Position numbers and translations under genes: made by a program | Part shown: positions 5,603-51,388 of the stretch, piece after piece | How the letters are laid out: each line of letters starts with the position of its first letter | Position numbering within the stretch: the first letter of the stretch is position 1 | Notes under the pieces: generated by a model | Seen by the model: the letters and a program-made list of their open reading frames with translations, nothing else | Told to the model about the DNA's origin: nothing | Databases searched by the model: none | Assembly: GCA_003402285.1 (NCBI GenBank) | Contig: QFXG01000001.1 | Location: forward strand, 62,001-126,000 | Direction: 5' to 3' | Source: Candidatus Nitrotoga sp. SPKER | GTDB lineage: Bacteria > Pseudomonadota > Gammaproteobacteria > Burkholderiales > Gallionellaceae | Length of the DNA: 64,000 bases

Positions 5603-6769
5603 CTACTGGACAGTGGATTGGCACTGTCCGGTTTCAGATGGATGGATGCTACGACCAGCCATATCCAGTACCCTAATTATAGCTAGCCTATACGCGTCGG
5701 GTAATGTATCGGCGTGAGCCGCATCATGGCTAATTGCGGTTAAAATCGCCCGTTGTAGCCGTTTAGCTTCGGTCACTTGCCGCTCGAAAATGGCGTAACG
5801 AAATGCTATCAGTGACCGTTCAACTTTAGCCACGCCATCGCATGGATGTTTAAATAGCACCGCGAGCAGACTTTCGTGTGTTGCTGCCGCGAGCAATGTA
5901 CCGCGAGCCTTATTTGTTGTAATACCGCCAGCAAAGGCGACTTGCTCGACTGACTCTTCACTGAGTTCTACGAAAAAGTCTGCCATCTGCCGGTGGTAGG
6001 CAGACTTACCGCGTAACCAGTCTCGAAATAAGGCGCTAGCGGCTGCAGCGGATTGTATCGTGCTGAGCTCAAGCAGGTAGCGATGGAACGCCCGAAACTC
6101 GAAATTTACGACATTTGACCGGGCTAGAAAGAAAGGATTGCTGGAAACGTTAAAGTCTTCGCAGAAAGCCTTAGTCGTCGGCACGACGGTATTGCAGCAA
6201 TTCTCGAACCGGGCGAACTCGAAGTCGATGAACCCTACTTGATCGCCATCAATTAAGATGTTTGCGATCTTGAGGTCATAGTGCATAAAGCCCAGGCGAT
6301 CCATCACATATAAGCGATCGAGAACGGCATACAGCTGCCGGGCAGAGAGCGGATGTATTCGAGGATCCGGATGTTTGCCCGCCAACTCGGTCATAAAAAG
6401 GAAGTAGCTGCCTGCGGCTCCAATGCGCGCCAGTAGTGTGGGCGCATCCATGATGCCTGCGGCGGGAAGCATGACAAGCATTTTGGCCTCCCACGCAAAT
6501 GTAGCGTCGTCGTTAGTTCGCTGCGGGCCCAGCCGTGGCACCTTGACGATCGCGATGCTTGACGTTCCTTTGCACCCGAGAAGGCAGACGCGGTAGCATA
6601 TAGCGTTATGGTCGCGAGCGAATTCAGCGACTTGTCCGTTCAAGATCGAACGGATTACGGTGGCAAATTCGCAGTGATCGACTTGAAGAAGACCGGCATC
6701 GAGGATTGTACAGTCAACCGCACCGGTGTATTCGTCCAGAATATTTTGCATATGGCTGCTAGCATGCAT
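5603..6769 (-). CDS. Protein-kinase-fold phosphotransferase (aminoglycoside phosphotransferase/LPS kinase-like)
   Basis: Kinase signatures: AIVKVPR, MHYDLKIANILI (HxDxxxxN), VGFIDFEFA (DFG-equivalent); ATG at 6769 overlaps the end of the upstream gene. Confidence 0.7.
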   Translation of the reverse strand: MHASSHMQNILDEYTGAVDCTILDAGLLQVDHCEFATVIRSILNGQVAEFARDHNAICYRVCLLGCKGTSSIAIVKVPRLGPQRTNDDATFAWEAKMLVMLPAAGIMDAPTLLARIGAAGSYFLFMTELAGKHPDPRIHPLSARQLYAVLDRLYVMDRLGFMHYDLKIANILIDGDQVGFIDFEFARFENCCNTVVPTTKAFCEDFNVSSNPFFLARSNVVNFEFRAFHRYLLELSTIQSAAAASALFRDWLRGKSAYHRQMADFFVELSEESVEQVAFAGGITTNKARGTLLAAATHESLLAVLFKHPCDGVAKVERSLIAFRYAIFERQVTEAKRLQRAILTAISHDAAHADTLPDAYRLAIIRVLDMAGRSIHPSETGQCQSTVQ

Positions 6770-7481
6770 CGGCGTTGTCTCGTCCTGAGATTCGTGTCCT
6801 GGCGACAGCGATGTCCTCAAAGTAATCGATTTCCTTCCAGCGATAACGAGCGAAGTCAAAAGGCACAAATACAACATTAATGTCCGCGATCAGTTTGCGC
6901 ATGACGAAAAAATAATACGTGCGTGATTCATTAAATCCTCGACACACGCGGCGATCAAGTGTGCCCGCAAATAACCGCGCAGCGTATGCTGAAAGCTTGA
7001 AAACGCCCGCGTAGGCTCCACTGTAACCAGTAAAGTTGACGCCGAAACGCGTGACGCGATCGTACGCTAGCGCAATGTTTATTTCCTTCGGGTCGAGGAC
7101 GCTGCTGTCGTAGGCCACCAGCGACTCCGCTTTCATCGCAAGAAGATTGGCCGCCAGTTCATCCGACAGCACGACGTCTCCATGGATCACCATCAGCGGC
7201 TGATCAAACGATGCGCGTGCAAACCACAGCGAAGCATTGATCCCGGTGATGTCGAAGAAAGGGTTGACAATGATCCTACAGCCATCAACCAGAGGTTCGA
7301 TGACATCGCTCTTATATCCCAGTACAACGTGGATATCGGCACACGCATCGTATTGCCGAATCTGCCGCAGTAGCCGTTCAATCAACAGCTCGCCATTAAT
7401 GTCGATCAGACATTTCGGGAGGCCCGCATGTGCATTTCCCATACGTTTGCCCATGCCAGCGAGGAGAATCAGGTAGCGCAT
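6759..7481 (-). CDS. Sugar-phosphate/phosphocholine-type nucleotidyltransferase (LicC/MobA-like)
   Basis: MRYLILLAGMGKRMGNAHAGLPKCLIDINGELLIERLL with GxGxRM...PK signature; MVIHGDVVLSDE. Confidence 0.85.
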   Translation of the reverse strand: MRYLILLAGMGKRMGNAHAGLPKCLIDINGELLIERLLRQIRQYDACADIHVVLGYKSDVIEPLVDGCRIIVNPFFDITGINASLWFARASFDQPLMVIHGDVVLSDELAANLLAMKAESLVAYDSSVLDPKEINIALAYDRVTRFGVNFTGYSGAYAGVFKLSAYAARLFAGTLDRRVCRGFNESRTYYFFVMRKLIADINVVFVPFDFARYRWKEIDYFEDIAVARTRISGRDNADAC

Positions 7482-42867: not shown

Positions 42868-43835
42868 TCATGCGGTAGTTGGATACACCTCCCCCGTTAA
42901 TGGCCGTCTCCACTTAATGAGATTGATCATCACCAGCATGACAAAAGCATGGTTGGCGTTCTTGGTCAGACCGCGATAGCGAGTCTTGGCGAAGCCCCAC
43001 AAGCGCTTCAAAGTGAGGAAAGGGTGTTCGACCTTGGGGCGCATCGCAGACTTGCGTCGATTCGTTGTCTTGTCCGCCTCGGTCAGAGGACGGTTCGTGT
43101 AGTCGCATATGCTGGTGAAATCTTTCGCCTTCGGCGCAAGGGTCTTGAGTTGCTCGCGCTGCTCCTTGCCTCGATACGCGCCGTAGTCGTAGAAACGGGT
43201 TTCGTTGCCATGCAGCAGATTCGGTACTTTGTGGCGGGCATGCACATTTACCGCCGTGATGCTGGTGCTGTGGATCAAACCGCTTTTGCTGTTGACACCA
43301 GCTACATCTTCATGACGACACGTCATTGCTTGCCTTTTTGGTCTGGTGCATCTCTGGGTCGCGAGCCTTCTCCAGGTTCTTGACCGAGGTAGCGCGACAA
43401 TCAGGGTGGCATCGATAAGGATGTCGCCTGACGGGCTCAGACCGTTGGTCATTAGCCACTCGCTTACCTTGATGAAGGCGGCGGCACCCAGCTCATGCCA
43501 CTCCACTAACTGGCGAAGCAGGCCCAGGGCACTGCCGTCGGCAATCCGCTCATCACCCAGATCAAAGTCGAAGAAATTCCGGAACAGGGCATCGTGCAGG
43601 GCTTCCTCGCAGGTCACATCGCCCAGGTTGAACCAGTTGGCGAGGCAGTACTGCGCAGCATATGCTCCAGTCTGACCGGTGGCTGGCCATTGCTCGCCTT
43701 GGGGTGGTACGGCTCAATCAATACGCATAGCTCCGCCTATGGCATCATTGTCTCCATTCGTTCGCGCCAGAAATTCCAACTTGCGCGTCAAACGCGCGTG
43801 TTTCTCAAATCCCCTCGTTCCCATGCTCATTTGTT
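42868..43835 (-). pseudogene. IS5-family transposase remnant (multiple frameshifts)
   Basis: FEKHARLTRKLEFL..., FNLGDVTCEEALHDALFRNFF, DATLIVA, then SVKNLEKARDPEMHQTKK in another frame, then SKSGLIHSTSITAVNVHARHKVPNLLHG...VEHPFLTLKRLWGFAKTRYRGLTKNANHAFVMLVMINL. Confidence 0.9.
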
Positions 43836-43956: not shown

Positions 43957-43967
43957 GATACTGTATC
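43957..43967. repeat. Candidate attL core GATACTGTATC
   Basis: Identical 11-mer recurs at 50383-50393 on the other side of the integrated element. Confidence 0.55.
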
Positions 43968-44117
43968 GTACAATGTACCGTTCATAGACTTTCGCAGTCT
44001 TCCATAAAACACAATGATATCAGCCTTCCTGTACAGTTTATTGTTTACTACCGTTCGCCAAAGTTTGCTATAATTCGTGTTAATGGGTAAGAACGTGGGT
44101 AAGAACTGGGGGCGGAA

Positions 44118-45326
44118 ATGGCACAACAAATTGGCAAGCTGGCAGCAAGACAGGTTGACTCATTGAAGGAAGGATTTCATGCAGACGGTGGAAATCTTTA
44201 TCTGCGAGTGAAAGAGTCCGGGGCAAGAAGTTGGGTTTTCAGATACAAGATTGCCGGTAAAGTCAGTGAGTTCGGTTTAGGTTCCAAGAATGAACGCTCC
44301 CTTGCTGATGCACGAGCACTTGCTGGCGCAATGCGCAAAGCCATAGTAGATGGCAATGATCCAGCAGAACTACTCAACAGACGTGATAGCACTGCCAAAA
44401 CGTTTCAGGACTATGCAGCCAAGCTTATTGAGGCAATGCGTCCATCCTGGAAAAGCCCCGGCCACACAAAAGAATGGGAAACAACCCTTAGACGCTTTGC
44501 CTTTCCTGTAATTGGCTTCAAGCTGCCTTCAGAGGTGACGCTTACCGACTTAGAGAAAATACTTTGGCCGTTATGGACTACTAAGACAGTGACAGCTAGC
44601 AGGTTGCGTCAACGCATAGAGGCTGTGCTAGCTAAAGCTGCGGTAACTGAGAGAGCGCCTACCAGATACAATCCAGCGGCTTGGAAAAACAATTTAGATC
44701 AAATTTTCCCAAAGCCCAACAAGGTAGCTAAAAAAGTTCATTTTGCCTCTGCGCCGTATGTTGATGTTCCTGCATTAATGTCCGCATTGCGCTCAAAGAA
44801 CCATATGTCTGCTTATTGCCTACGATTTATTATTTTAACCGGAGCCCGTTCCGGAGAGGCTCGGGGTGCTTTGTGGAGTGAAATAGACATGCCAGCGAAG
44901 ACCTGGACGATACCTGCCAGCAGAATGAAAGCCGGGCTAGGCCATAGGGTGCCACTAAATGAAGAAGCCCTGATAATTCTGGCTAAAATGCAAGATTGGA
45001 GAATGCCCGGTTCGGAGAGGGTTTTCCCTGGTAGACAGGGCGGCTTACTATGTGATGTAGCAGTTAATCAAACCCTACATAATATTATCACCGGTGTGAC
45101 TGTTCACGGCTTCAGGGCAAGCTTTAGGATGTGGGGCGCTGAAACGACAGCCTACCCATCGGCCGTGCTTGAGGCAGCTCTTGCCCACGTTAATCAGAAC
45201 GCAACTGAGGCAGCTTACCAACGTAGTGACCTATTCGAAAGACGACGGGAGCTGATGAACGCATGGGGCAACTATTGCTCAAGCAAGGGAAATATTGTTC
45301 AGCTGGTCAGCAATGCAGCAGCATAA
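44118..45326 (+). CDS. int: P4-type tyrosine recombinase / integrase (DUF4102 N-terminus)
   Basis: SLKEGFHADGGNLYLRVKESGARSWVFRYKIAGK, LTGARSGEARGALWSEID, HGFRASFRMWGAE, ALAHVNQNATEAAYQRSDL. Confidence 0.95.
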   Translation: MAQQIGKLAARQVDSLKEGFHADGGNLYLRVKESGARSWVFRYKIAGKVSEFGLGSKNERSLADARALAGAMRKAIVDGNDPAELLNRRDSTAKTFQDYAAKLIEAMRPSWKSPGHTKEWETTLRRFAFPVIGFKLPSEVTLTDLEKILWPLWTTKTVTASRLRQRIEAVLAKAAVTERAPTRYNPAAWKNNLDQIFPKPNKVAKKVHFASAPYVDVPALMSALRSKNHMSAYCLRFIILTGARSGEARGALWSEIDMPAKTWTIPASRMKAGLGHRVPLNEEALIILAKMQDWRMPGSERVFPGRQGGLLCDVAVNQTLHNIITGVTVHGFRASFRMWGAETTAYPSAVLEAALAHVNQNATEAAYQRSDLFERRRELMNAWGNYCSSKGNIVQLVSNAAA

Positions 45327-45328
45327 GA

Positions 45329-45357
45329 CACCGTGCGTGCACCATTCGTGCACGGTG
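45329..45357. terminator. Hairpin after the integrase gene
   Basis: CACCGTGC-gtgcaccattcgt-GCACGGTG; no strong U-tract. Confidence 0.4.
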
Positions 45358-45820
45358 TGTTCGGCAATTCGTCTTGGTTCAGTATCGGCTTTTATTTTTT
45401 CTAAAGCTATAACATTCAGAGGATTAGTACGTGTTCGCTCTTCGGCTTTATTCGGCTTTATTTTTCGCCGGACTGAAGAAAACCCACCGGGTTAACCGTG
45501 GTTTGACTTGGGTTATTTTGGGTTAGGTTTGGGTTATCAATTTCGCTTTGAAATAAATCAATATCAGGCCGTTTAAAGCGTCTTTCATGGGGTGTTTTTC
45601 AAAACAGGTTAAAGCCCCTTAATTTTTAATCGGCGAAAACCGCTATTTGTCCACAGCGGAAGCCTCAACCGGGGGGGGGTGATTGTTGCTTTGTTGATGC
45701 TTCGTTACTTGCTATTAATTTCATATTGTCTTTCAACGTCATTTAAGGCGGTTCTAACGCGTTTTATTGAGTCCGATAGGGGCAAGCCTCAACTGAATGA
45801 AGCAAACCCCTGCCGTGGCA

Positions 45821-46492
45821 CTAAATCGCGTAATTAGCTGCAACCATGCGGCTTGATGCTTGCTGCTGTCTGGCGACGTTAAGCTTTCGAACAGGGTCTC
45901 CACGCTGCCCAGAGACTGAAACTTGCCAAATCATTTCGCCATGTGCTCGGTTTGAGACGCAAGCACTGATTGCCGCAAGTGAGGCCGCCTGCCCTGGTAA
46001 CTCAAGATCATTCAAAGCCAGGTTCATAGAATCGGTAAAACTTGCCTCAGTTGATCTTGCTTGTCCAACTCGCCAGCATTGGTAAACAAGTGGCAAATTT
46101 CTGTCAGCTCGGGCATTTTCAAAAGTCAGCCCCAGCAATGGCAGAGAAATAGTGCCAAGCTCACTTGCATGGCAAAGCCGGATTTGTGCATCTCTGGCAG
46201 CATCCTCATCAAACTTTTGCAGGCTCAGTAGCAGAGGTTTGTTCTCCCAAAACTTCTTATGGGCGTATGAAACTTCGGCCATGGTCATGATTGTTTTAAG
46301 TTCGGCGGTCAGCGCTGGCTCCTCCTTTGCGCGGGTGGCTTTGACAGTCTCCAAAATCCAATCGCGACTTCGAGATTTGTCATTCTCGCACTGCTCGATT
46401 AAGGCATTAAGCTTTTCAATGATCGACTCCATTTTTTTAATGGAGGTATCGGATATTTCTTTGTTCTTTAGCAATTGTGTTTGGCTTAACAT
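45821..46492 (-). CDS. Hypothetical protein (223 aa) in the satellite
   Basis: Long ORF with N-terminal coiled-coil-like segment; no family recognised. Confidence 0.55.
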   Translation of the reverse strand: MLSQTQLLKNKEISDTSIKKMESIIEKLNALIEQCENDKSRSRDWILETVKATRAKEEPALTAELKTIMTMAEVSYAHKKFWENKPLLLSLQKFDEDAARDAQIRLCHASELGTISLPLLGLTFENARADRNLPLVYQCWRVGQARSTEASFTDSMNLALNDLELPGQAASLAAISACVSNRAHGEMIWQVSVSGQRGDPVRKLNVARQQQASSRMVAANYAI

Positions 46493-46693
46493 TTTTTAAA
46501 ACCTTTCAAATAAGTTGTGAAACGTTTGGTTTTATCTTAGAGCTTGTTAGTTTCAGTTTTGTGTCAGGGAGGGTCTTTATTGTTTGGCAGGCCCATCAAA
46601 ACCTCTCCCTTGAGGATGGTGCAGTTTGTGGTTCTTTCCCCCTAACAATCCCATTCAGAATAACCATGCATATGGTGAATCTATAAAGGTGAC

Positions 46694-46831
46694 CCGTGGC
46701 GGAACGATCAAAACATGAAAAACAGTGGGTTTCGTTCCGTGGCGGAACAAAATGGATCATTTTTACAGTTTTGGTGTGTTGCATCGTTCCGTGGCGGAAC
46801 GTTTTAGGAATGCATCGTTCCGTGGCGGGGC
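46694..46831. repeat. Four copies of the palindromic unit CGTTCCGTGGCGGAAC
   Basis: 46694-46706 (partial), 46733-46748, 46785-46800, 46816-46831 (one arm degenerate). Confidence 0.9.
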
Positions 46832-47299
46832 TACCGTTTGCGTTTTTCTGGCACGTCTCCAATGTGCCGGATTTTCCAATGTAGGTGGTTTGGCAAGTGC
46901 TCCTCCGTCTCCCATGTAATCCGAGACTCGAAAGGCGCTTGGTGTAACTTGTAACTTGGATTGATCGCAGTGAAGTGGATAAAGCGTCAGTGCAAATAAG
47001 CTGCAATCCAAACGCCCACCTTGCCGAGTTTGAATCAGCAGGCCGCTTGCTATTAACTCTTGAATTGCAGCATGCAGGCTGGCCCGGCTTGTCCAGCCCC
47101 GAATCGCGAGCGTTTTTGGAGTTAGAGATAAATCTCCATTGCCGCTTGCGTTGGCCCCAAGTAACGCCCATAAATCCAGCACTAATTTTGCTGCAAGTGG
47201 GGACATTTCGGCGCACGCCCTGGACCGCAAAAATTCCAGTGGGACTGGTAGCCACACCCCGGCAACTGCTATGCCGTGTCTCGATCTTTTTTTGGACAT
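46763..47299 (-). CDS. Winged-helix DNA-binding protein of the satellite (replication/regulatory type)
   Basis: MSPLAAKLVLDLWALLGANASGNGDLSLTPKTLAIRGWTSRASLHAAIQELIASGLLIQTRQGG wHTH pattern. Confidence 0.6.
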   Translation of the reverse strand: MSKKRSRHGIAVAGVWLPVPLEFLRSRACAEMSPLAAKLVLDLWALLGANASGNGDLSLTPKTLAIRGWTSRASLHAAIQELIASGLLIQTRQGGRLDCSLFALTLYPLHCDQSKLQVTPSAFRVSDYMGDGGALAKPPTLENPAHWRRARKTQTVAPPRNDAFLKRSATERCNTPKL

Positions 47300-47302
47300 G
47301 GG

Positions 47303-47614
47303 TCATACGCCCTCCATCTCAGGGCAGAAAACGTAAAGTGCAACACGATGAAGTTTGCCGCAGTCCGTGGGCTGGTCTATCCAAACCCTGTCAATGCGGT
47401 GGCCATACCTGTGACGCAACTCAAAAATGCGTGGCGCAACTCCAAGAATGTCTAACTCACGACGTGCAGTGATTGTGTCTATGCTGCCACACGTTTGTAG
47501 CCAAGCAAGTAGGCTTTGCCGCTGGGCTTTAGATGAATTAGAATGGCTGCGCATAGCGTTTTTCTTAGCCGGTTTGGGTTGCCTCCCATCCGGCTTTTTC
47601 TTTTTGTCTGGCAT
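47303..47614 (-). CDS. Helix-turn-helix / host-nuclease-inhibitor-like small protein
   Basis: SSKAQRQSLLAWLQTCGSIDTITARRELDILGVAPRIFELRHRYGHRIDRVWID wHTH pattern as in phage helix-turn-helix proteins. Confidence 0.65.
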   Translation of the reverse strand: MPDKKKKPDGRQPKPAKKNAMRSHSNSSKAQRQSLLAWLQTCGSIDTITARRELDILGVAPRIFELRHRYGHRIDRVWIDQPTDCGKLHRVALYVFCPEMEGV

Positions 47615-47616
47615 GG

Positions 47617-47853
47617 TTACACCTCCCGTGCAGCAAGGCGTTTGTTAATCCATTCTGAAATTTCAGCTTCGGCGAAAACAGTTTTTTTTCCCAGTTTTAC
47701 CGGTCGCAATTCACCCCGCTTGATTAATTGATACAACGATGTTTTACAAAGCGCTGTGCGCGACATTGCTTCAGGTATCGCTATAAACCGTGGGGGGCAA
47801 GTCGGAAATGAATTTGAAGCTGTTGCTTCGGGGAATTGTATTGGTAACGACAT
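47617..47853 (-). CDS. alpA: AlpA-family transcriptional regulator/excisionase
   Basis: IPEAMSRTALCKTSLYQLIKRGELRPVKLGKKTVFAEAEISEWINKRLAARE. Confidence 0.85.
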   Translation of the reverse strand: MSLPIQFPEATASNSFPTCPPRFIAIPEAMSRTALCKTSLYQLIKRGELRPVKLGKKTVFAEAEISEWINKRLAAREV

Positions 47854-47894
47854 GGCAAAAGCTCCTAAAGTGCTTTTGTGCCGTCCAAACGAAA

Positions 47895-47942
47895 GGCGGC
47901 GACAAAAGCGTTTTAATTAAAAAATCGCTTTTCGTCGCCGCC
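47895..47942. promoter_or_regulatory. Long hairpin upstream of alpA
   Basis: GGCGGCGACAAAAGCG-ttttaattaaaaaat-CGCTTTTCGTCGCCGCC, 16-bp stem with one bulge. Confidence 0.7.
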
Positions 47943-48112
47943 CCCTTGGAGCTACTCAATACTTACCGTCACTTCCCGGCCATAGACCTTCCCCTAGGGA
48001 TCACAGATAAATCTGCGGGTAGACCTGCTCATACTGGCTACTACTTGGAAAAAGTATGACAGGATTATTTATTTGAAGCAAGTATTTTGTTTTTACATGC
48101 GTTCATGCGCCT

Positions 48113-48739
48113 TCATGTTGCAGCCTCAGCAATTGGTTTTGACGCATCAATAATGGATTTCAACGAAGCCAGCTTTCCTATCAATTGAAAGTTCTTTGCT
48201 TTTAAAGAAGCATGTGCTTTGTCGATTGCTGCATCAAAATCTTGTTTTAATTGCGCGGCTTTTTCGTCTAGTGAATTGGCATATTTTTCATTTAATTGCT
48301 TTTTCGCTTTGTCTAAAGTTTCTACATAGTTTTCGATTTCATCCACTTGCAAGCATGAATAAGCGTCCAAAATCCACTGCTGCAATTGATCTGAGACAGA
48401 CTCTTCTTCAAGAGCTTTTGCGCAATGACTTAATAACTGCGCAGCATATTTTTCGCCTTTAGTCAGGTCGTCTGCATGGCTTGCGGCAGTACAAAAAGCA
48501 TGAACTCCTGTATCACCCAACACTGATAAATCCCAGCCTAAATAAAAACCCTTTGCTTCGAAAGATGCTCTTATTTGATCTGAGAAATAAGGCGGAGGCA
48601 CCCGGGCTATAATTTCATCCGGCAAGTAACAAAGCGCAATATCCCGTATAGTTTCAACCAAATTTAATTTCTTGATCTCATCGCTGCCAAACTGACGGAA
48701 CAAGCTTCTGATGTGTGGCACTTCTTCGCATCGCGTCAT
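48113..48739 (-). CDS. Hypothetical protein (208 aa) in the satellite
   Basis: Complete ORF, C-terminal coiled-coil-like segment. Confidence 0.55.
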   Translation of the reverse strand: MTRCEEVPHIRSLFRQFGSDEIKKLNLVETIRDIALCYLPDEIIARVPPPYFSDQIRASFEAKGFYLGWDLSVLGDTGVHAFCTAASHADDLTKGEKYAAQLLSHCAKALEEESVSDQLQQWILDAYSCLQVDEIENYVETLDKAKKQLNEKYANSLDEKAAQLKQDFDAAIDKAHASLKAKNFQLIGKLASLKSIIDASKPIAEAAT

Positions 48740-48835
48740 GTATCACCTCTTATTTTAATAAAAATATACCCCCCATATAGTAAAGCCCCTCTGATCACTC
48801 AGCGGGGCGGCACCAAACTGGCGGTCTGAAAATTG

Positions 48836-49132
48836 CTACTTTCCTCTACTCACTAGTGTGGTGAGCAGGACTAGCGCTTCAATGCTGTCCAGTCCATTAG
48901 CGATCGAAAATAGCAAGCTTGGCAGGTCATCGGACGATTGAAAGTTTCCAGAATTAACATCGTTTTGAACCAAAAAACCGACGCCCTCGACTAAAGTCTT
49001 TAGATGTGTAACGTGGCCCGTGGTCATGTCGTTAACGCCCGCAAACCATTCCATTTCCTCTTTAGTTAGATTGTCGATTGCTCGTTCCCAAAGTAAAAAC
49101 ATTGCGTTGGTGACTGTGAAGACCTTATTCAT
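48836..49132 (-). CDS. Small hypothetical satellite protein
   Basis: MNKVFTVTNAMFLLWERAIDNLTKEEMEWFAG...; start inside the 135-aa ORF, overlapping the end of the upstream gene. Confidence 0.5.
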   Translation of the reverse strand: MNKVFTVTNAMFLLWERAIDNLTKEEMEWFAGVNDMTTGHVTHLKTLVEGVGFLVQNDVNSGNFQSSDDLPSLLFSIANGLDSIEALVLLTTLVSRGK

Positions 49133-49463
49133 GGCTGCCTCCTGCTTCTGTTCTTTCGGCAGCGCGAGCGGCGTAGCGACGAAGCATACCTTGGTCGGTG
49201 CGCTCGCATCCAACGAATCTGGCCTCCCCGGATATGCATTCATTCATTTCAAAGGCTTTATTCCAGATTGCTTCAAAAGCAACAGCGAGAATTTCCGTGT
49301 GACGATACGCTTCTGGCATTTCCATGTAGGCCATTGCAAGTTTGGCTATTGCTTCAATCTGTGAAAAACCAGTTTGTGCCAAGCCATCCATAGCGTTGAT
49401 GGTTTCTTTAAGGGTAGAAAGGGTGGGGGTTGGTGCGGATGCTTCTGTGGATTTTTGGTTCAT
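49125..49463 (-). CDS. Small hypothetical satellite protein (112 aa)
   Basis: ORF with RBS-like region upstream (aaggag); MNQKSTEASAPTPTLSTLKETINAMDGLAQTGFSQIEAIAKLAMAYM. Confidence 0.5.
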   Translation of the reverse strand: MNQKSTEASAPTPTLSTLKETINAMDGLAQTGFSQIEAIAKLAMAYMEMPEAYRHTEILAVAFEAIWNKAFEMNECISGEARFVGCERTDQGMLRRYAARAAERTEAGGSHE

Positions 49464-49731
49464 GGTGTAACTCCTTTCGATACGGTTTTAAACCGCTCTG
49501 CCTCGCTTCGAATGAGAGGGAGGGCGGGACATGTGCGGGTTCGAAGACCGGGAAAGGTACCGGCAAGGCTTGCGCCTTCCCACACAGCCCGCCCATAAAA
49601 GGGTAGCCATGCGACGGACGTAAAAAAACCACCAAGGGTGGCGGCATGTCCGCCTTTCTCCGGGCTTCGAACCCCGTATCACTGATTCCAGCGACGAATT
49701 GAGGATATGACCAAAGCCTAAGAGCTGTCAA
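49408..49731 (-). CDS. Ash-family-like ORF overlapping a structured, probably RNA-encoding region
   Basis: ADMPPPLVVFLRPSHGYPFMGGLCGKAQALPVPFPVFEPAHVPPSLSFEA resembles ash-family ORFs of P4-like elements; may be a conserved-RNA shadow rather than a protein. Confidence 0.4.
   Translation of the reverse strand: MTALRLWSYPQFVAGISDTGFEARRKADMPPPLVVFLRPSHGYPFMGGLCGKAQALPVPFPVFEPAHVPPSLSFEARQSGLKPYRKELHHEPKIHRSIRTNPHPFYP
49622..49641 (-). terminator. Intrinsic terminator inside the ash-like region
   Basis: Minus strand CCACC-CTT-GGTGG followed by TTTTTTT. Confidence 0.75.
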
Positions 49732-50026
49732 GCGATTTGTTACGGAAGTGCGCTGGCGTGTAAGTGGCTGCTGGCTAATAACGGAACCAAGACGGAAGCA
49801 GGACGGAAGTGCAACGGGTGTTTAACGGAAGTGTAACCGTTATTTAACGGGTGTTGAACGTACGTTGGACGGTTGTTGATATGCTCCAAACTGGCGTTCT
49901 CGAAGACTGCTCCAAACTGACCGTCTGAAATAATCCTGGGCGCCATTTCTGCGCATAGCAAGTAAATAAAAAGGTTTGTTAATCAAGTTATTGCATCAGA
50001 TCAAGGGGTTAAAACATTAGTCATTT

Positions 50027-50062
50027 CTACGCAGGTTTTTACGCAGGTTTCTACGCATTATT
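50027..50062 (+). repeat. Three 12-bp iteron-like repeats
   Basis: CTACGCAGGTTT / TTACGCAGGTTT / CTACGCATTATT in tandem. Confidence 0.75.
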
Positions 50063-50382
50063 GTTTATTGCAGAGTGTCCCAAACTGAGGTTCTGTAAGC
50101 TTACCAGAAGGCTTGATGCGTTCGCTATGCATTGGCATTGCGTTGGCATTGCTTGAAGGATGCTTGGGGGAATGCTTGGAGCATGGCAATACATCGTGCA
50201 TGCATTTACAAATACCAATTTGACGCCCTCGAAAATTGATGCCACATAAGGTATATTGCAACTATCTTCTTGTTTGAAATATCAAGTAAGCAATGTAAGT
50301 GAGTAAGAACAGCGGTAAGAACGATATTAAAATCTCTACCAAATACCCATAAATATCATATAGTTGAAAACAGTATTAATAC

Positions 50383-50393
50383 GATACTGTATC
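50383..50393. repeat. Candidate attR core GATACTGTATC
   Basis: Identical to 43957-43967; 30 bp upstream of accA ATG. Confidence 0.55.
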
Positions 50394-50422
50394 ATTTGAA
50401 TACACAAATAAATACGAAATTT

Positions 50423-51388
50423 ATGAAAGCTATCTTCTTGGATTTTGAGCAGCCCATCGCCGAATTGGCAGACAAAATTGAACAACTCCGCTTTGTACAA
50501 AATGATTCAGCTCTGGACATCTCTGATGAAATTAACCGTCTGCAAATAAAAAGCCAGGCGCTAGCCAAGGATATTTACGCAAAGCTTACGCCGTGGCAAA
50601 TCTCGCAAGTGTCACGCCATCCCCAGCGCCCTTACACGCTAGATTACATTCAGCACCTGTTTACTGATTTTGAGGAGCTGCATGGAGATCGTTCCTATGC
50701 CGATGATCCGGCAATTGTCGGCGGACTAGCACGTTTTAATGGCCAAAGTGTAATGGTGATCGGACATCAAAAAGGACGTGACACAAAGGAGAGGCAGTAT
50801 CGCAATTTTGGCATGCCTCGCCCTGAGGGTTACCGCAAGGCGATGCGCTTGATGCGACTGGCGGAAAAATTTGATATTCCTATTATGACTTTTATTGATA
50901 CCCCGGGTGCGTACCCCGGAATTGGAGCCGAAGAACGGGGGCAGTCTGAAGCCATCGGTAAAAATTTGTATGTGATGGCAGAATTACGGGTGCCATTGAT
51001 CTGTACGGTGATCGGAGAGGGCGGTTCTGGTGGCGCGTTAGCGATTGCGATCGGTGACGTGTTGTTAATGCTGCAATACGCCACCTACTCTGTCATCTCG
51101 CCCGAGGGTTGCGCTGCCATCCTTTGGAAAAATGCAGACAAGGCGGCTGATGCAGCTGAAACACTGGGTATCACCGCGACAAGGTTGAAGACGTTGGGGT
51201 TGATCGACAAGATCATTAACGAACCACTAGGTGGTGCTCACCGTGATTATGAAGCAATGATGGTAATCCTGAAAAAAAGTTTACAAGACGCACTCAAACA
51301 GGCGCAATCTTACTCCATAGACAAATTGTTGCAGATCCGTTTCAACCGCGTAATGGGTTATGGTAAGTTTAAGGAAGTCGAGCTTTGA
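50423..51388 (+). CDS. accA: Acetyl-CoA carboxylase carboxyltransferase subunit alpha
   Basis: [49 protein letters not shown] at 50423 preferred over upstream TTG. Confidence 0.97.

Follow-up and report, generated by a model that had tools for sequence, protein, structure and literature searches.

The C4 region and its layout

The short complementary segments and the terminator-like hairpin found around position 49,600 of the window (the whole stretch of 64,000 nucleotides of Candidatus Nitrotoga sp. SPKER DNA analysed here) raise the question of whether this region acts through an RNA or encodes a protein. A preliminary description had placed a P4-type RNA immunity or attenuation module at 49490-49690, overlapping an ash-like open reading frame, and every sequence string that it listed was found where it had been reported. 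The minus strand at 49600-49516 matches the Rfam C4 antisense RNA family (RF01695) with 55.2 bits, above the cut-off of 45 (E 6.6e-8), and the fold of this segment (z -4.97) beats 200 of 200 shuffles. Two related models gave matches under their thresholds, the c4-a1b1 target model at 49708-49657 (25.1 bits, gathering threshold 46.7) and the isrK model at 49695-49622 (26.3 bits, cut-off 50), which spans the target and the terminator. The three matches stand in the expected order on the minus strand, and the P1 and P4 sequences themselves match these models. As the Rfam match is above its cut-off, the layout is P1-like and the targets covary with the RNA, the region 49731-49463 is very probably a C4/CI-type antisense RNA immunity switch of the P1/P4 kind. 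The type of system is known; what is new is another locus, in a 6.4-kb integrated element. The idea of a P4-type RNA module in a mobile element is therefore well backed by the Rfam match, the P4 and P1 model matches and the target-RNA covariation, although the true feature, spanning about 49731 to 49463, is wider than the region first outlined.

The site names used here are taken from the P1 record, which annotates a1, b1, C4, a2 and b2 just before icd. Read along the minus strand, the switch begins with a promoter (TTGACA-18-TATCCT, 49731-49702), the single match in 600 nt, with 10 of 12 positions agreeing. It is followed by a 5' leader hairpin (GTCGCTG-GAAT-CAGTGAT, 49695-49678) which the alignment to the c4-a1b1 model makes part of that fold. 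Target a1 (GGGTTCGAAG, 49674-49665) lies in the loop of a hairpin at 49676-49661, and target b1 (GAAAGG, 49658-49653) comes next. Between these targets and C4 lies an intrinsic terminator, CCACC-CTT-GGTGG-T7 (49645-49622), a hairpin with its T-run. The C4 RNA of about 85 nt (49600-49516) carries the word b' (CCTTTC, 49557-49552), an anti-Shine-Dalgarno sequence in the loop of its hairpin 2, and the word a' (CTTCGAACCC, 49546-49537). Target a2 (TTCGAAG, 49512-49506) stands directly after C4, and target b2 (GAAAGG, 49478-49473) is the Shine-Dalgarno sequence of the first gene, whose ATG is at 49463. As expected of the C4 family, the upstream targets a1 and b1 are complementary to the C4 RNA of the same locus, and the downstream targets a2 (to a') and b2 (to b') are also present, with b2 at the ribosome-binding site. 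The b pairing is only 6 nt long in the window.

Conservation in relatives

Two complementary pairs had been proposed from the sequence, and only one of them proved to be real. When the region is shuffled by dinucleotides, a complementary pair of 10 nt at least 30 nt apart arises in just 1.6% of cases, so that GGGTTCGAAG/CTTCGAACCC, now recognised as a1/a', is unlikely to be due to chance. In an alignment of 17 relatives from the same family-level group the 7-nt core of a1/a' pairs at 99.2%, and changes on both sides are seen at 6 of its 7 positions. The combined a1/a' and b1/b' structure outscores 500 of 500 shuffles on the main measures, as well as every slid version of itself, and for the a2/a' and b2/b' structure, likewise, none of 500 shuffles and no slid version reaches the observed covariation on these measures. 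Covariation is also seen in the stems of C4. The other pair, GGACATG/CATGTCC, was rejected as a functional pair and is a chance match: a 7-nt complementary pair occurs in 60% of shuffles of the region, and in the alignment this one is 68.6% paired, which is the shuffle level, with fewer both-sided changes than in shuffles. The term pseudoknot, applied earlier to these segments, is not the best description, since the pairs would act between a small RNA and leader targets, in trans or in cis. The second word, b' CCTTTC, which is complementary to b1 and to the Shine-Dalgarno sequence, and the downstream target a2 had both been overlooked.

A promoter-like pair upstream of a1 (score at least 9) was found in 35 of 98 relatives against 2 of 98 shuffled sequences, and in most of the relatives listed the spacing between a -35 box and a1 is roughly the same. 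Within the window the single terminator found per 600 nt, against 0.7 in shuffles, is within chance. Its position is kept in relatives, 86 of 98 of them having a terminator-like hairpin with a T-run between b1 and C4, versus 22 for shuffled sequence. A helix GCGGAC/GTCCGT (49653-49648 with 49619-49614, minus strand) encloses the terminator and its T-run. Its five aligned pairs are 100% paired in the 17 relatives, and a small number of distant loci have unrelated sequences that pair over 8-11 nt at this position.

The integrated element

The switch is contained in a 6.4-kb element (43957-50393) flanked by 11-bp direct repeats GATACTGTATC (43957-43967 and 50383-50393) and inserted just upstream of accA. 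These borders are given by the fact that five of seven genomes of the same genus join the left flank (43912/43920-43967) directly to 50383/50384-51497 with a single copy of GATACTGTATC. An IS5-family transposase gene (42868-43617) lies just to the left of the element. The right end of the element is no more than about 40 bp from the likely start codon of accA (50383-50423), so the upstream sequence of accA has been replaced and its promoter may be altered. At 49781-49879, in the stretch from the C4 promoter to the right end, some nine 11-bp units (ACGGAAGTGTA, ACGGGTGTTTA and similar) stand in tandem and are possible iterons or an operator array. Moreover, CCAAACTGNNNNTCT occurs in four copies (48813, 49886, 49912 and 50080, plus strand), all within the element and on one strand, and a longer pattern of it ending in TCTG has three occurrences genome-wide, all in this element.

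On the minus strand behind C4, the first gene encodes a 112-aa protein (49463-49125) and the second a 98-aa protein (49132-48836), neither of a recognised family, and the first gave no match in phage records. A homologue of the first gene is found downstream of C4 at locus L015 of genome G017 and is followed by a homologue of the second, in the same place as here. Further along the same strand are genes for a coiled-coil-like protein of 208 aa and of no recognised family (48739-48113), an AlpA-type regulator or excisionase (47853-47617; PF05930 1.4e-7, PF12728 4.2e-10; 38% to P4 ORF88), a winged helix protein of the HTH_39 type (47614-47303; PF14090 1.3e-13) and a 178-aa protein with a weak, sub-threshold Pfam match to a helix-turn-helix (47299-46763). 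A tyrosine integrase (PF00589, PF13356, PF22022; 28% to P4 int) is encoded on the plus strand at 44118-45326; a scan of named genomes with this protein yielded a single match, in Geothrix, at 36% identity.

The label of P4-like satellite holds in part. A P4-type integrase and an AlpA/Vis regulator are present (28% and 38% identity), but tblastn of the remaining element proteins against P4 gave no match, and neither Pfam nor P4 searches matched alpha primase-helicase, sid, psu or delta in the element. It could be argued that the element is a decayed remnant which has lost its replication genes and whose immunity module is no longer functional, given that the 6.4 kb yielded no recognisable primase/helicase or capsid gene and that integrase and AlpA alone match P4. 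We consider this unlikely, since all the parts of the switch are intact and both words and the four targets are mutually complementary.

Proposed mechanism

The RNA fold, the two words, the four target sites, the promoter, the terminator and the RNA-target covariation are established here. By homology to P1 C4 and P4 CI, we infer an immunity mechanism in which this C4 would be expressed, processed and repressive. The promoter at 49731-49702 would drive a minus-strand leader, from which the C4 RNA (49600-49516) would be processed as in P1 and P4. The word a' would pair with a1 upstream and with a2 immediately downstream; the partners of the word b' would be b1 upstream and b2, the Shine-Dalgarno sequence of the first gene. 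The upstream pairing would favour termination at 49645-49622. The downstream pairing would keep ribosomes from loading on the 112-aa gene, and the operon that follows it, with AlpA, HTH_39 and others, would thereby stay silent. C4 would in this way silence the operon both by more termination upstream and by blocked translation of its first gene, and incoming elements bearing both same words would be repressed in trans. Pairing of this kind has been described for the CI RNA of P4, a processed antisense RNA which pairs with seqA and seqC (PMC4825925, PMC10111431).

The duplex of the C4 core with a1-b1 is predicted in silico to be much stronger (-34.5 kcal/mol) than that with a2-b2 (-15.8 kcal/mol). 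In simple folding the terminator hairpin forms with or without C4 on a1-b1. A simple switch between terminator and anti-terminator by alternative folding was rejected, as the hairpin is present in both states, and for the same reason an effect of C4 on termination is one that we only infer. The presence of the hairpin in both states would also suit a leader that is structured, has a constitutive terminator and attenuates in cis only, the C4-like segment pairing with its own leader and giving no diffusible repressor; in the fold of the full transcript, a1-b1 indeed pairs in cis with a'-b'. This explanation appears very unlikely because the same RNA has a second set of targets downstream, including the Shine-Dalgarno sequence, whose complementarity to it is maintained, because the fold of C4 is also conserved, and because P1 C4 and P4 CI, which match the same model, are reported as antisense RNAs. 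The terminator does lie, as first described, within an ash-like frame of 107 aa that starts at a TTG and is mechanically open (49731-49408, minus strand), and the P4 CI RNA sits inside the eta gene (PMC10111431), but an ash/eta-type protein gene with incidental RNA signals is hardly tenable and the frame was rejected as a coding gene, because its TTG is part of the TTGACA -35 box, it has no Pfam or PHROG match, the Ash family profile (PF10554, Phage_ASH) does not match this locus, and among relatives none of the frames is open consistently.

Comparison with known systems

As an antisense RNA switch, the locus is closest in layout to C4 of phage P1 (c4-icd-ant operon), with which it shares the Rfam family and the succession of promoter, a1, b1, C4, a2 and b2 at the Shine-Dalgarno sequence of the first gene. 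It differs from P1 in its words, in a first gene that is not recognised as icd or ant, and in its placement in a small integrated element, whereas P1 is a plasmid prophage. The CI RNA of satellite phage P4 (seqA-seqB-seqC) is matched by the Rfam C4 and isrK models, and by eye P4 has the word GTGAGAA at seqA and seqC and a b word, TTCACAGGA, which is the Shine-Dalgarno sequence of the gene behind. The integrase and AlpA of the window are also related to the P4 integrase and ORF88; unlike P4, the element has no match to alpha primase, sid, psu or delta and no nested eta/kil frame. The likeness to IsrK (Gifsy-1) and STnc1160 lies in the isrK model, which spans target and terminator with a score below the cut-off, although anrP/orf45-like genes were not recognised behind the window C4. 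In gram-negative PICIs, C4/isrK immunity RNAs occur in satellites with AlpA and integrase (PMC10111431). The window likewise has a probable immunity RNA in a satellite-like element with these two genes, although no Bro-N gene was recognised in it. A complete C4/P4-type RNA immunity module is thus probably present, within a satellite-like element, in a genome that is not one of the classical models.

Two words across C4 loci

Searches for C4 in the family (15 of 158 genomes with C4) and in the order (55 of 399 genomes) gave 136 loci. The a word was evaluated on 133 non-redundant loci; as control, the flanks were exchanged for those of other genomes and read by the same parser. It is found as an exact 7-mer both upstream (a1) and downstream (a2) in 71% of the 133 loci versus 6% with swapped flanks. 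For the 106 loci in which b could be parsed, the b loop matches its own b1 at 7 or more in 71% (swapped 2.9%, swaps with the same a word 3.3%) and its own Shine-Dalgarno region at 8 or more in 65% (swapped 1.3%, same-a-word swaps 2.5%); the start codon is commonly about 7-8 nt past b2. Since the b matches collapse even with flanks that have the same a word, the words a and b vary independently. Each word is held complementary at both its upstream and its downstream target, that is, in three places at once.

The 136 loci contain 52 a words and 122 b loops in 131 distinct combinations, and two genomes have ten C4 loci each, with all combinations distinct within these genomes. Sister cassettes show how the words change. 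Loci L053 and L056 of genome G254 have C4 backbones 90% identical and an a word in common, and differ in b (CATCAAGG vs CACTTTGG) at the C4 loop and the Shine-Dalgarno sequence, with b1 changed correspondingly. The same b-only pattern is seen in L055/L063 (CATCAAGG/CATAGAGG), and the b word differs likewise in L029/L054; in L029/L089, b is in common and a differs. Strict avoidance of identical specificity within genomes was rejected. Both words are shared by 2 of 241 within-genome pairs against 3 of 8,939 between-genome pairs, so that shared ancestry outweighs any avoidance, and because identical combinations occur twice within genomes their uniqueness is no strict rule. For one of these two pairs the identical DNA (100%) extends over 3,083 bp, and the other shares 1.26 kb at 99.3%. 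Loci L016 and L018 (G149), about 80 kb apart on one contig, share 3,083 bp at 100% identity, through a recent duplication or an assembly artefact.

We tentatively suggest, as a proposal that may well turn out otherwise, that immunity by C4 RNAs follows a two-key code which is open-ended. The words a and b would recombine, and each would change at its three sites together. As many as ten orthogonal elements would in this way share one cell, and co-resident cassettes that are nearly identical would avoid repressing each other through a change of one word at all its sites simultaneously. No description of such a two-word code was found in the literature searched, subscription literature excepted. 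Heteroimmunity is known for P1/P7 and for P4-like elements. The relatives turn this old observation into a quantitative, testable code of two short words with three sites each and several per cell, so that the rules by which satellites and prophages are incompatible through RNA can be measured directly with reporters in a laboratory strain. The two-word code with its concerted changes is the part most worth following.

A search of phage records gave 11 with a C4-like stretch, from Pseudomonas and Bordetella phages, and a search of plasmids gave two weak matches, both in Pseudomonas plasmids. Judged by eye, the first gene behind C4 at locus L128 (G164) resembles a SymE-type toxin and first genes at other C4 loci are Bro-N/antirepressor-like.

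A second C4 in the same genome

A second C4 is present in the same genome at 6691-6775 of locus L150 (G000 contig C31:1-14000), with 43.9 bits, just under the cut-off. Its element is different, with integrase, DUF3631, phage capsid and HNH genes, and its words are other than those of the window C4. The L150 element resembles a capsid-forming satellite; a1 and b1 of its C4 are seemingly intact, and a2 and b2 seemingly lost. It also contains a 24-nt stretch (L150:7461-7438) identical to the CCAAACTGNNNNTCT repeat region of the window element.
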